This document shows positions 28,898 to 32,974 of a DNA stretch of 64,000 nucleotides, one piece after another. Location: NCBI RefSeq assembly GCF_008017535.1, contig NZ_VRUA01000007.1:1-64000 (forward strand), given 5' to 3'. The position numbers and the translations under genes are program-made. The stretch is from Ottowia flava. GTDB taxonomy: Bacteria; Pseudomonadota; Gammaproteobacteria; Burkholderiales; Burkholderiaceae_C. Under the pieces are notes generated by a model, which was given only the letters and a program-made list of their open reading frames with translations, was not told where the DNA came from and did no database searches. The first letter of the stretch is position 1. The number at the start of each line of letters is the position of its first letter.

Positions 28898-29710
28898 ATG
28901 CCCACTGCTGCCCCTGAACCTTCCGCCCGCCGCCGCCGCGTCCAGTCGGCCGAGACCGGCATGGCCATCCTGAAGGCGCTGGCCCGGCTGGGCGGCGCTG
29001 CCAGCCTGACGGCGCTGGCACAGGCGGTGGAAGAAAGCACGGCCAAGGTCCACCGCTACCTGGCCAGCATGGTCGAAGAAGGTCTGGTGGTGCAGGACGT
29101 GACCAGCCAGCGCTACGTGCTCGGGCCTGAAGCCATTCACATCGGCCTGGCCGCGCTGCGCCAGTGCGACCCCATCCGCGCGGGCGAACCGGCCCTGCTG
29201 CGCCTGCAAGCCGAGCTGGGCGTGACCTGCTTCATCGCCGTGATGGGCAACCGCGGCCCGACCATCCTGCGCATTGAAGAACCGCCACTGCCCGTGGTGG
29301 TGAACGTGCGCGCGGGCTCGGTGCTGCCCCTGCTGTGGTCGGCCACCGGGCAAGCGTTTCTGGGCTGGATGGAAGGCGAGGCGATCGATCAGCAGGCGCA
29401 GTCCGACTGGGATGCCGCCAGCGCGGCGCAGCGCATGCTGCTGACCGACCTCGACGCCACTACCGCGTCACCCATCGACGTCCTGCGCGCGCGCGTGCGG
29501 GCTCAGGGGTGCGCCACCGTGCGCGACCTGCTCACCGCCGGCATCAGCGCCGTGGCCGCGCCGATCCTGCAGCACGACGGGCACGTGGTGGCGGTGCTGA
29601 CGGCGTTGGGGGCATCGGGTGGGTTTGACCCAGCGCCGGACGGGCGCATTGCGGTGCGCGTGGTGCGAGAGGCAGGGGAGATCAGTCGGGCGTTGGGGTG
29701 GGTTGGATAG
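28898..29710 (+). CDS. IclR-family transcriptional regulator
   Basis: The 270-residue protein has an N-terminal winged HTH (about 17-80, SLTALAQAVEESTAKVHRYL) and a C-terminal IclR effector domain (about 90-265). It is divergently arranged with the Bug gene. The shared region contains a 10-bp palindrome ATTGCGCAAT at 28848-28857, a candidate operator. The ligand is likely an aromatic or carboxylate compound, but this is inferred. Confidence 0.9.
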   Translation: MPTAAPEPSARRRRVQSAETGMAILKALARLGGAASLTALAQAVEESTAKVHRYLASMVEEGLVVQDVTSQRYVLGPEAIHIGLAALRQCDPIRAGEPALLRLQAELGVTCFIAVMGNRGPTILRIEEPPLPVVVNVRAGSVLPLLWSATGQAFLGWMEGEAIDQQAQSDWDAASAAQRMLLTDLDATTASPIDVLRARVRAQGCATVRDLLTAGISAVAAPILQHDGHVVAVLTALGASGGFDPAPDGRIAVRVVREAGEISRALGWVG

Positions 29711-29772
29711 AGGTCGGGTGGGCGGCCGCACGCCGCAGGCGCTGCGTTTGGTGATACATGGTTATTGAGATC

Positions 29773-29816
29773 AAATCGGCCTCTAACCCAAGCTGGATTT
29801 GCGCAAGCAGCTATTG
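29773..29816 (-). repeat. TGCGCA dispersed repeat, copy 8
   Basis: On the minus strand CAATAGCTGCTTGCGCAAA, then AGCTTGGGTTAGAGGCCGATTTGA. This is one of the best matches to the consensus. It lies downstream of the IclR gene. Confidence 0.85.
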
Positions 29817-29872
29817 ACTTTGTAGTTGATTGTTCTCTGCGCACACGTTTTGCTTCAGTGACTGAACGACGT

Positions 29873-30500
29873 TGAGAGGCCGGGACATGCGCCCGGCGGC
29901 GCACCTTCTTTTCTTGACTCGCCAAGAAAAGAAGGCAAAAGAAGGCGACCCCACTGGCCGTGTCCCCGCAGCGATGCTGCGGGGCAACCTGCGATGCTCG
30001 ATCGGGCGGTGGCGCTGCAGAACTCGCTTTGCTGCTGCGCAGCGCCGCTCAGACAGCTGCAGCGAGTCAGAGCACGCAGCGCGGGCATCCTTCGGTGCCC
30101 GCGCCCACCGCCCGCTCTGCGCTTCTCGGCACGTCCACAGGGGAGTGAAGACGAGTCGGGCCATCGCTGCGCTCGGCCCTGGATTCGCGGCCGAGCGCAG
30201 CGATGGCCCGACTCGGGTATTCCAGCCCCTTGAGGCTGCGCCTGCGGCGTGGTTCTGGCGGGGTGGCGCGTGCAGCGCAGCATGCACGCGCTTCGTGCAC
30301 TGACTGGTCGCAGCTGTTTGAACGAAGCGCTATCAGCGCGAAGTGAGTTCTGCGGCCCACCCCGCCAGAGCCGCGACGCAGGTCTGCCCCGCTGCGCAGC
30401 AGCGGGGTCGCAGACGTGGGGTCGCCTTTCTTTTGGGGACTTTTCTTTGGCGAAGCAAAGAAAAGTGCCTCGGCCGCCGGGCCGAGACCCGGCCTCCCAC
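29873..30500. repeat. Giant imperfect palindrome (two inverted halves of about 310 bp)
   Basis: This gene-free stretch is two inverted copies of one sequence. The ends match as inverted repeats (GAGGCCGGG...GCCCGGCGGC on both sides, then TTTTCTT hairpins 29904-29935 and 30439-30466, then AAAAGAAGGCGACCCC). The centre is a perfect 26-bp inverted repeat (30153-30178 with 30189-30214, 10-base loop). Each half holds a nested stem, GGGCGGTGG / CCACCGCCC (30004-30012, 30105-30113) versus GGCGGGGTGG / CCACCCCGCC (30257-30266, 30357-30366), whose differences are compensatory. It encodes no transposase. Short frames in it look like artefacts. Confidence 0.8.
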
Positions 30501-30555
30501 CGTAGTTCAAGCTCCGAAAATCAACGAGCACGGAGCGAACGGATCACTACAAATT

Positions 30556-30601
30556 CAATAGCTGCTCGCGCAATCCTATCTAGCGCCAACGCCCCAAAAC
30601 C
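30556..30601 (+). repeat. TGCGCA dispersed repeat, copy 9
   Basis: TCAATAGCTGCTCGCGCAAT followed by CTAGCGCCAACGCCC is a slightly diverged copy, placed directly after the P450 gene. Confidence 0.65.
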
Positions 30602-30616
30602 CTCAAATCCACAACC

Positions 30617-32974
30617 TCACAACTCCAACACCAACTTCCCACTCTTCGCCCGCGAACAGCACACCATCATCCGATCCTGCGCATCCCGCTCGGTGCGTGT
30701 CAGCACCACGTCGCGGTGGTCCACGGTCCCGTCCAGCACGCGCACTTCGCAGGAACCGCACAGGCCTTCGCAGCAGTCGCTTTGCACGTCGATGTTGGCG
30801 GCTTTCAGCGCGGCCAGCACCGTCTGGTCGGCCGGGACTTGCAGGGTGATGCCGGAATCTTTCAGCTCGACTTCAAACGCGTGCTCCTTGCTGGGGTCCA
30901 GCGTGGGCGCGTCGGTCTGGAAGCGCTCGGTGCGCAGGCTGTCGTCGGGCCAGTGGACGGTGGCGGCGTCCAGCGCGTCCAGCATGCGGATCGGGCCGCA
31001 GGCGTAAATGCGGGTGCCGTCTTCGGGTGTGGCCAGCAGCGCGGCCAGGTCGGCGCGCTGGCCTTCGTCCTTGGCGTGGACGACCAGGTGCTCGCCGTGG
31101 CGCGCGGCCAGGGCTTGCAGCAGCGGCATGGTGCGGCGGCTGCGGCCGCTGTAGTGCAGCGTGTAGGGCAGGCCAAGCGCCTGCGCGCGCTGCGCCATGG
31201 CAGCGATGGGGGTGATGCCGATGCCGCCGGCGATAAAGACCAGACGGCGCGCGCCTTCGTCAAAACGGAAATGGTTGCGCGGGCCGCGCACGCGCAGGGT
31301 CTGGCCTTGCGCCAAATGCTGGTGCACCCAGGCCGAACCGCCGCGGCTGTCTTCGTCACGCAGCACGGCGATTTCAAACGCGTGGGTGTCGGCCGGGTCG
31401 CCGCACAGCGAGTACTGGCGCGACAGCCCGGTGTCGCCGCATTCGATGTCGATGTGCGCGCCGGGCTGCCAGCGCGGCAGGGGCTGGCCGTGCGGGCTGA
31501 CCAGGCGCAGCTGCACCACGTCGTCGGTCAGGCGCGTGATGCGCTCGACCACCATGGGGCGCGACAGCGTGTGGCGCGAGGGTTCGCCGATGCGCACCGG
31601 CTGCTCGCGCGTCAGGACCTCGGGCTGGGTGCGCTCGGGGTTGCGCGCCGGGTCCCATTCGACCCACAGGTGCTCCGGCCCGCGGAAGGACGTGTTGGGC
31701 ACGTAGCTGAAGGTCTGCTCGGCCAGCCGCATGTGCGGCAGGCGGCGCGTGAATTCCTCCAGAAAGATCTGCATCTCCATGCGCGCCAGGTTCTTGCCCA
31801 TGCACTGGTGCGAGCCGTAGCCGAAGGTCAGGTGGTCGCTGGCGTTGTCGCGGCGGATGTCGAACAGGTCGGCGTCGGCAAAGTGGCGTTCGTCGTGGTT
31901 GGCCGACGAGGTGACGATCAGCAGCTTGCTGCCCGCCGGGATGGCGATGCCGCCGACCTGAGCGTCGGCCGTGACCAGACGCCGCCAAGCCGCGACCGAG
32001 CCGTTGTGGCGCAGGCACTCTTCCACCGCGTTGGGGATCAGGCTGGGGTCGTCGCAGATTTCCTGCCACACGGCCGGGTGCTGCAGCAGCAGCTTCATGG
32101 CGTTGGCGGTGGCGTTGGCCGTGGTCTCGTGCGCGGCAACGATGCCGGCCATCATCATCGAATGCAGGTACGAATCGGTCACCACCTCGGGGTGCTCGCG
32201 CTGCTTGCGGATGCCGTACTGCATCCAGCCCGCGGCCTCGGGGTTCAGGCGCATCTTGTCCAGGATTTGCCCGGCCAGCTGCCAGAAGTTGCCGACCGCG
32301 TGCGCCACGGCCACCTGCTCTTCCGGCTTGGGCCGGCCCCAAGTGTTAACGGTGTGCGCGATGCTGTATTCGCGCAGCTTGTCCATGTCTTCTTCCGGCA
32401 CGCCCAGAAAGTGCAGCGCCACCGTCAGCGGCACTTCCCACAGCATCTGGTCGACCAGGTCGGCGCGGCCGTCGTTCACGAAGCGGTCCACGTACTCGCG
32501 CGCCAGCTGGCGCACCAGCGGCTCGTGCGCCTTCAGGTGTTCGGGCGTGAAAGGCTCCATCAGCACGCGGCGGCGCGGCATGTGGGCGGGCTCGTCTTCG
32601 TTGACCAGCGTGCGGTTCAGCGCGAAGCCGTATTGCTCGAGCACCGCGTTGGCCTCCGGCCCGGTGGGCGTGATCTTCTCCAGCGCGATGGCGGGGCTGA
32701 AGGTGATGTTGTCGCGGAAGATCGCCTTGATGTCGTCGTAGCGCGTCACCACCCAGTAGCCCAGCTTGGGGCTGTAGAACACCGGCTCCTGATCGCGCGC
32801 CCAGCGCACGTAGTCGGGCGGGTCTTGCTGGTAGCCGTCTTCGAACGGGTCAAACGCGGCCGCACCCGCCGTCACCGGGCAGCCGGTCGGCCCTTTGGCC
32901 GCGGTCAGCGCGGTGGGGTCAAACGGACAGCGGGCGCTGTCCGCGGAAGCGGTGTCGGCTTGGGGCGTGGTCAT
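30617..32974 (-). CDS. Self-sufficient cytochrome P450 fused to a phthalate-dioxygenase-type reductase (CYP116B-like)
   Basis: The 785-residue fusion has three modules in order: a P450 haem domain (about 1-455; I-helix MMAGIVAAHETTAN, ExxR region ECLRHNG, haem Cys391 in FGYGSHQCMG), an FMN/NADH reductase (about 465-690; SRQYSLCGDP, GGIGITP) and a plant-type [2Fe-2S] ferredoxin (about 700-785; DCCEGLCGSCEV, VCCS). Order and length match P450RhF/CYP116B2, a monooxygenase needing no separate redox partners. ATG 32974 is used; the longer frame starts at TTG. The natural substrate of this group is unsettled. An AT-rich dyad lies just upstream. Confidence 0.94.
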   Translation of the reverse strand: MTTPQADTASADSARCPFDPTALTAAKGPTGCPVTAGAAAFDPFEDGYQQDPPDYVRWARDQEPVFYSPKLGYWVVTRYDDIKAIFRDNITFSPAIALEKITPTGPEANAVLEQYGFALNRTLVNEDEPAHMPRRRVLMEPFTPEHLKAHEPLVRQLAREYVDRFVNDGRADLVDQMLWEVPLTVALHFLGVPEEDMDKLREYSIAHTVNTWGRPKPEEQVAVAHAVGNFWQLAGQILDKMRLNPEAAGWMQYGIRKQREHPEVVTDSYLHSMMMAGIVAAHETTANATANAMKLLLQHPAVWQEICDDPSLIPNAVEECLRHNGSVAAWRRLVTADAQVGGIAIPAGSKLLIVTSSANHDERHFADADLFDIRRDNASDHLTFGYGSHQCMGKNLARMEMQIFLEEFTRRLPHMRLAEQTFSYVPNTSFRGPEHLWVEWDPARNPERTQPEVLTREQPVRIGEPSRHTLSRPMVVERITRLTDDVVQLRLVSPHGQPLPRWQPGAHIDIECGDTGLSRQYSLCGDPADTHAFEIAVLRDEDSRGGSAWVHQHLAQGQTLRVRGPRNHFRFDEGARRLVFIAGGIGITPIAAMAQRAQALGLPYTLHYSGRSRRTMPLLQALAARHGEHLVVHAKDEGQRADLAALLATPEDGTRIYACGPIRMLDALDAATVHWPDDSLRTERFQTDAPTLDPSKEHAFEVELKDSGITLQVPADQTVLAALKAANIDVQSDCCEGLCGSCEVRVLDGTVDHRDVVLTRTERDAQDRMMVCCSRAKSGKLVLEL

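Follow-up and report, generated by a model that had tools for sequence, protein, structure and literature searches.

A multicopy palindromic repeat of Burkholderiales whose unlike arms share a conserved fold and a predicted triple-helix pseudoknot

In the window (the whole stretch of DNA analysed, 64,000 nucleotides of Ottowia flava contig NZ_VRUA01000007.1) a large palindrome is flanked by two convergent genes, whose ends lie at 29710 and 30617, raising the question of what its two unlike halves encode and why they are paired. Open reading frames and gene calls place on its left a plus-strand gene at 28961..29710, presumed to be that of an iclR-type regulator, and on its right a minus-strand gene at 30617..32974, likewise presumed to be a P450-reductase fusion-like gene. 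A sequence-only reading had described the region as a gene-free palindrome at 29873-30500 made of two diverged inverted copies of a ~310-bp unit, with matching outer ends, a hairpin at each end, a stem within each half and a perfect central repeat of 26 bp, and apart from this last length the layout is borne out. The left half occupies 29878..30178 (minus strand; strand test of G-U and A-C appositions over 118 aligned halves) and the right half, inverted with respect to it, 30189..30494 (plus strand; tree), each matching profile positions 1-305. The inverted-repeat search returns the outer ends as 29891-29915/30458-30482 and the inner stems as 30000-30012/30105-30117 and 30241-30266/30357-30382; the central inverted repeat (30152..30215) is indeed perfect, with arms at 30152-30178/30189-30215 and a 10-nt spacer, and is 27 bp long. 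This central spacer differs between copies in both length and sequence. The codon-usage gene caller called no gene in the interior, though mechanical open frames are present there.

In the left half we take the minus strand as the structured one, and in the right half the plus strand, both being read from the centre outward. In that direction each half has a core domain, delimited by covariance model and covariation (model R1; left 29998..30119, minus; right 30251..30372, plus), and, beyond it, a set of short segments that can be read directly in the sequence and in tests across the family. In the left half these are a segment S1a (TCGC on the minus strand, 29945-29948) and a putative third strand L1 (TTCTTTT on the minus strand, 29937-29943), together 29937..29948, followed by the end hairpin S2 (29904..29935, minus), which has a 13-bp perfect stem and a 6-nt loop to which S1a is complementary. 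In the right half (30422..30434, plus) S1a (TCGC, 30422-30425) is separated by one C from L1 (TTTCTTTT, 30427-30434), and the loop GCGAAG of the end hairpin S2 (30440..30465, plus) is again complementary to S1a. The right half is closed by a 3' GC-rich box (30466..30494, plus) in which two overlapping hairpins, TCGGCC..GGCCGA and CCGGG..CCCGG, were recognised by eye; they possibly form a second pseudoknot, and the box differs between copies as a module, again by eye. Beyond the halves, and also by eye, an outer left module (29770..29872; ..AGCTATTGACTTTGTAGT..) is the inverse of an outer right module (30500..30590; ACTACAAATTCAATAGCTGC..). The symmetry runs on into such flanking modules for most of the 10 O. 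flava copies. The outer inverted module (AGCTATTGAATTTGTAGT / ACTACAAATTCAATAGCT), which flanks most copies in that genome, is probably a distinct repeat family, often found next to the unit.

The palindrome is a member of an unnamed family of multicopy repeats in Burkholderiales, to which repeats in other Gammaproteobacteria are related. The O. flava genome has 10 copies including that of the window; the remaining nine share 83-91% identity with it, and in one of them, C52, there is no left end hairpin. Matches occur in 20/29 genomes of the genus; the 9/29 without a match, including 3 of the 17 good ones, indicate that the element is not essential. In the window's family 101/200 genomes have matches, many of them end pieces only. 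A check proposed with the sequence-only reading, the search for halves elsewhere, shows that single halves and inverted pairs both occur in relatives. A first set of 185 sequences (168 non-redundant) gave 94 clusters, namely 37 '+-' pairs, two '+--' arrangements and 55 singles, one of these last being a short Paraburkholderia match; one half that is split by an insert is counted twice (the insert, of ~1.16 kb, interrupts the half after profile position 59 at L141:3503-4662 in genome G003). When all loci are counted, 47 of the 48 unique adjacent pairs lie face to face (inward), the exception being one '++', and a separate, overlapping count gave 24 '+-' and one '--'; in a larger sample single halves are commoner than multi-half clusters (108 vs 25). 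Pair spacers range from -4 to 421 bp.

The two halves of one pair are 62 to 90% identical (median 74). As judged by eye in the tree, most pairs combine halves of different classes, as does the window copy, singles belong mostly to one class, and there is a tendency for copies from the same genome to cluster. Near-perfect palindromes of such length are unstable (SbcCD), which is perhaps why paired arms diverge by 10-38%. In one 7-Mb genome (G028) several contigs (e.g. C1, C28, C51, C53 and C63) end just past a half, pointing to assembly breaks near repeats.

Which strand is selected for structure was evaluated with an alignment of 118 unique full halves, with structures predicted also without G-U pairs in order to avoid a bias toward them. 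Under the G-U-free prediction the outward strand has 272 G-U and 68 A-C appositions, and the inward strand 67 and 281, respectively. By this asymmetry, selection appears to act on the single strand that runs outward from the centre; that strand is most likely RNA, and less likely single-stranded DNA. In the core alignment (A1; 116 of the 118 sequences) 97.3% of cells are paired vs 82.4% in shuffled alignments, with 539 double changes vs 137 and a covariation of 0.438 vs 0.158, and 0/500 shuffles attain the observed values. The earlier claims that compensatory changes keep the structure, and that the unit encodes RNA, are in keeping with these results, the latter as likely, from strand asymmetry and covariation together. 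Slid versions of the core structure reach a covariation of at most 0.076, a comparison that favours the true register because the structure was derived from the same alignment; the margin over the shuffles is very large. Folding of the individual halves, another of the checks proposed earlier, shows both halves of the window copy, on each strand, to be more stable than all 100 shuffles (z -3.8 to -7.0). In the right half the outward strand is the more stable (-181.9 vs -165.3 inward), whereas for the left half the outward strand is not favoured (-163.8, z -3.8, vs -164.7, z -5.3, inward).

The outer end of the unit repeats the segment arrangement seen in the window. Among 127 halves that include an outer end, 102 (82 unique) have a perfect end hairpin and 25 do not, many of these having an interrupted stem. 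Upstream of the hairpin lies the short segment S1a and then the pyrimidine tract L1. S1a forms four Watson-Crick pairs with the hairpin loop in 89/97 sequences, in types that include TCGC/GCGA, CCGC/GCGG, CGCA/TGCG and CGTG/CACG. Between L1 and the purine arm there is a parallel match with a run of at least 7 in 71/82 hairpins, the mean run being 7.12 vs 5.69 after shuffling (highest of 300 shuffles, 6.11). A further test uses register: the position of C in L1 corresponds to the position of G in the purine arm in 76/92 informative sequences (97 of the 118 halves were retained by length and uniqueness, and five have no C), and 10,000 shuffles reach at most 47, i.e. none attains the observed count. 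These sequences are related and the counts not independent; when they are collapsed to distinct modules 43/57 agree. Seven of the 16 misses have an extra leading C and come into register once it is skipped. Treating L1 as a plain direct repeat or as one arm of an alternative hairpin was rejected, the antiparallel run averaging 5.83 vs 7.12 for the parallel one and the C being rarely mirrored.

From these regularities L1 is predicted to be a parallel Hoogsteen-type third strand in a major-groove triple helix. The segments follow one another as S1a-L1-S2a-S1b-L3-S2b, the order of an H-type pseudoknot, at the 3' end of the outward strand; at ~2 nt L3 is short for spanning S1. Telomerase RNA and other H-type pseudoknots form major-groove triples with this same topology, and the comparison, made on topology alone, extends to a U-rich L1 that runs parallel to the S2 purine strand and in register from the junction; the palindrome differs from telomerase RNA in being a bacterial repeat and in its very short L3, and we know of no link between its family and a reverse transcriptase.

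The prediction was put to a blind test by searching with the end hairpin alone. Matches were obtained in 19/398 phylum-sample genomes, all of them in the window's class, and in 8/274 class-sample genomes. Outside the window's family this leaves 26 unique sites with 18 distinct loops, and at 26/26 one of the two strands carries a third strand of 7 or more positions, compared with 0.94% per strand for shuffled upstream sequence. The S1 run at the same sites averages 3.62 vs 2.02 when the loops are shuffled (2,000 shuffles, highest 2.73) and is at least 3 in 22/26. Loop pairing, L1 register and the blind sites thus all have the form expected of an H-type triplex pseudoknot, so far as sequence can indicate one. 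The core model gives few and weak matches on these outside loci (L279, L287 and L292, at E 0.35-0.48), indicating that the knot reaches further than the recognisable core. In Pasteurella multocida (L295; NZ_CP020346.1 244831-244881) the end hairpin occurs by itself and adjoins the 3' end of dapF, in a record that is labelled a plasmid and carries seemingly chromosomal genes.

Core and knot together recur in distant Gammaproteobacteria. With the core model copies are found in at least 11/300 genomes of the order sample, at least 6 of these in three other families, and in 5/299 genomes of the phylum sample, all from the window's own family. A core signature pattern matches 7/369 class genomes, two of which have 16 and 13 copies; its reversed-pattern control gives one match, and the window's own genome has none to the pattern. 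Sixteen of 25 signature loci (three of the 16 being identical and collapsed) have downstream a pseudoknot in which S1 has 4 or more pairs and the triples number 4 or more, three have poor pseudoknots only and six have none (L358, L360, L361, L369, L375 and L381). One distant group builds the arrangement from different letters, with S1 AAGCAT/ATGCTT and a T tract against an A tract. Neighbouring pairs of these distant copies, compiled from model matches and signature, face outward in 10/10 cases (eight in G1168, one each in G989 and G907); nine of the ten have one arm with the exact signature, and the tenth (L279) consists of two weak model matches at E ~0.4. A further 13/13 face outward among pairs hand-picked from the order-sample coordinates, a selection that leaves out one same-direction extra arm and pairs >700 bases apart.

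The T/C-rich form of the knot is found in just 4/25 loci drawn from related records and core copies at a greater distance, and on reading it is absent from the pairs in G118 (the window's own family) and G489 (another family); its rarity there suggests that the 3' domain is modular or much changed in these copies. The sequence-only reading holds in part: what it did not contain is the strand-specific structure, the outer-end pseudoknot with its predicted triplex, and the spread beyond Comamonadaceae. Near one distant copy, outside the matched core and on the other strand, there is a group I intron match (RF00028, 66 bits; L363:1815-2065).

Gene context was determined from per-genome calls by the codon-usage caller for 133 clusters, 14 of which, at contig edges, were dropped; gaps from the same loci served as background. 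The clusters lie between convergent genes in 60/119 cases vs 76/608 background gaps, and between divergent genes in 8/119 vs 160/608. Singles between co-directional genes are sense-oriented in 25/38 (p=0.073), a weak bias that the enlarged sample leaves unchanged. Avoidance of promoters alone could give the gene-end position.

The history of individual sites was followed in relatives. One pair site is common to six species, with different spacers. Six orthologous sites without the element came up, as a further check proposed with the earlier reading had sought, and three were read in four comparisons; in 3/4 of these, other palindromic repeats stand in the element's place. The window site carries other palindromic repeats in what is presumed to be Ottowia beijingensis (L009) and a small ORF with a terminator-like hairpin in G003; where G016 has a pair, G001 has a different inverted repeat, and where G001 has a single, G025 and G016 have a short hairpin repeat. 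The repeat that fills the orthologous empty site at L009:6344-6706, GTGGGAGCGGGCTTGCCCGCGA..TCGCGGGCAAGCCCGCTCCCAC (with variants), is found likewise in the pair spacers at L098 and L155. At the three empty sites read no target-site duplication is visible, the flanks there having diverged, and no sharp boundary was seen. A half lies within ~1.5 kb of a Y1 transposase at 0/30 Y1 loci, and the transposase was undetected in four genomes that have matches (G005, G006, G007 and G011); a Y1/RAYT mobiliser was rejected on this lack of association. A phage origin was likewise rejected, with no match in 50,697 phage records. The MITE-like mobility suggested earlier gains no support from the sites read or from the Y1 loci, and the pair site common to six species and the clustering of copies by genome also bear on it.

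What the element does can be approached from the strand that is folded. Each arm encodes a ~300-nt fold consisting of the conserved core, the 3' H-type pseudoknot and a final box of GC hairpins. Of the functions considered, a two-way transcript-end element, in which the folded strand is RNA produced by read-through from the flanking genes and protects 3' ends, is put forward tentatively, as somewhat short of an even chance. A polymerase leaving either gene would transcribe the first arm that it meets as antisense and the second as sense; the palindrome would accordingly work for polymerase arriving from either side, and the transcript of either gene would end in one sense arm, whose knot and hairpins may terminate or process the transcript and protect its 3' end against 3'-5' exonucleases. 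Strand asymmetry, the 3'-terminal position of the knot, location at gene ends and palindromic pairing fit such an element, read through from either side. Neither a sigma-70-like promoter, within 29600-30800 of the window, nor a T-tract after the outward 3' end is present; a general proposal in the literature is that clusters of hairpins can terminate transcription with no U tract (PMC8355165). The fuller claim, that the family represents an undescribed large structured RNA of Gammaproteobacteria with a telomerase-type triplex pseudoknot, selected as a two-way transcript-end palindrome, is more doubtful. If it is true, a large RNA fold containing a natural triple helix, one found by three-strand covariation, is encoded by palindromes that stand unannotated in many proteobacteria, and these offer both a testable case of orientation-independent control of transcript ends and a rich alignment for RNA triplexes.

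Close behind in probability, and itself well below even, stands the possibility that the palindrome is a selfish, giant REPIN-like repeat, non-autonomous and copied by a trans-acting enzyme that reads structure in single-stranded DNA or RNA, with gene ends as the places where insertion is tolerated. Its multiple copies and their clusters within genomes, presence and absence at orthologous sites, avoidance of divergent promoters and the occupation of the same niches by other palindromic repeats all agree with such an origin, as do the inverted doublets with spacers, which resemble REPINs (PMC3116915); against it stand the retention of one site in six species, the missing target-site duplication and sharp boundary at the sites read, the lack of halves near Y1 loci together with the four genomes in which Y1 is undetected, and a covarying 300-nt fold with a predicted triplex that far exceeds REP size. 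Even if selfish, these would be repeats whose structured arms go far beyond REP size and which are kept as pairs of unlike halves. The remaining explanations are all improbable. Under one of them the element is a plain two-way terminator, in which the stem of the outer GC box followed by a T/C tract stops inward-reading polymerase at each end and the rest is secondary. Convergent gene ends are indeed preferred, and terminator-like sites occur at both outer ends, reading inward (29888-29903, plus; 30488-30467, minus). However, the window (to which this test was confined) has three such sites vs a shuffled mean of 1.2, a weak excess, the T tract doubles as a hairpin arm, and covariation along the whole outward strand of the arm and the third strand are left unexplained.

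An element acting as DNA, forming an intrastrand triplex or cruciform with effects on replication or genome stability in the manner of the BoxC triplex motif, is unlikely to a similar degree. The same third-strand geometry is possible in DNA, many single halves have a BoxC-like motif next to them, and BoxC loci have been linked to instability (PMC4666352), but a double-stranded role predicts no asymmetry of G-U and A-C where one of ~4:1 is seen, and an intrastrand DNA triplex needs neither the core fold nor the pairing of S1 with the loop. An independent trans-acting small RNA gene, present in many copies with a promoter for each arm, would account for the strong RNA-like covariation; it is nevertheless very improbable, given that the window copy has no promoter-like site and that spacers of 10-13 bp in many pairs leave no room for promoters outside the arms. 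Coincidental symmetry, which the sequence-only reading had named as the alternative for this GC-rich sequence, can be dismissed almost entirely in view of the 10 copies, the core covariation, the L1 register and the blind sites.

Like REPs, REPINs and BIMEs, the members of the family are intergenic, multicopy, hairpin-forming inverted doublets with variable spacers; REPINs are inverted doublets of REPs (PMC3116915), an arrangement matched by the 47 of 48 inward adjacent pairs, although in the larger sample singles outnumber pairs. The family differs from them in its arms of ~305 nt (a unit of 305 profile positions) against 20-40 nt for REPs, in its predicted triple-helix pseudoknot, in the unlike arms of each pair and in having no nearby Y1 transposase, since none of the 30 Y1 loci is flanked by halves as a RAYT would be. 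As regards MITEs, inverted ends are present, and no duplication is visible at the three sites read, where flanks have diverged. The terminator search, run on the window, gave the three matches already mentioned, two of them the inward-reading ones at the outer ends. BRE is similarly an intergenic repeat of Bordetella and Comamonadaceae, and is set apart by its published description as a ~90-bp repeat that is sometimes in head-to-tail tandem (PMC3110155). Among the 250 mobile or repeat candidates counted in a structured-RNA survey (PMC11109978), which as characterised there are structured, multicopy and inconsistently oriented to genes, the family may already have been seen. No Rfam 15 family reaches its gathering score on the unit in the copies tested, and sub-threshold microRNA matches were rejected as GC-hairpin noise; a literature search by motif strings gave no relevant title among the matches listed.

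The closest described parallel to the third strand is that of the BoxC and ITxF triplex motifs (PMC4666352), which likewise have an intrastrand third strand in repeated bacterial DNA. The motif of the palindrome differs in being T/C-rich and parallel, in its S1 helix with the loop and in lying within a covarying, strand-asymmetric fold of 300 nt, and it does not follow the BoxC / TM_ECO pattern CCCTCNCCC-GGGNGAGGG-GGGNGAGGG as given in that survey, whose main text contains none of Acidovorax, Variovorax, Xanthomonas, Comamonad- or Burkholderiales. BoxC-like motifs near the halves are, by eye, separate neighbours. At the inner end of many singles (in G001, G025 and G027; e.g. L145 10190-10270) a conserved GC hairpin, CCGCTGCTTCGCGCGG, often comes next, and the same inner flanks often carry a BoxC-like triplex motif, CCCTCTCCC..GGGAGAGGG..GGGTGAGGG, followed by a AATAGCTGC-type repeat.
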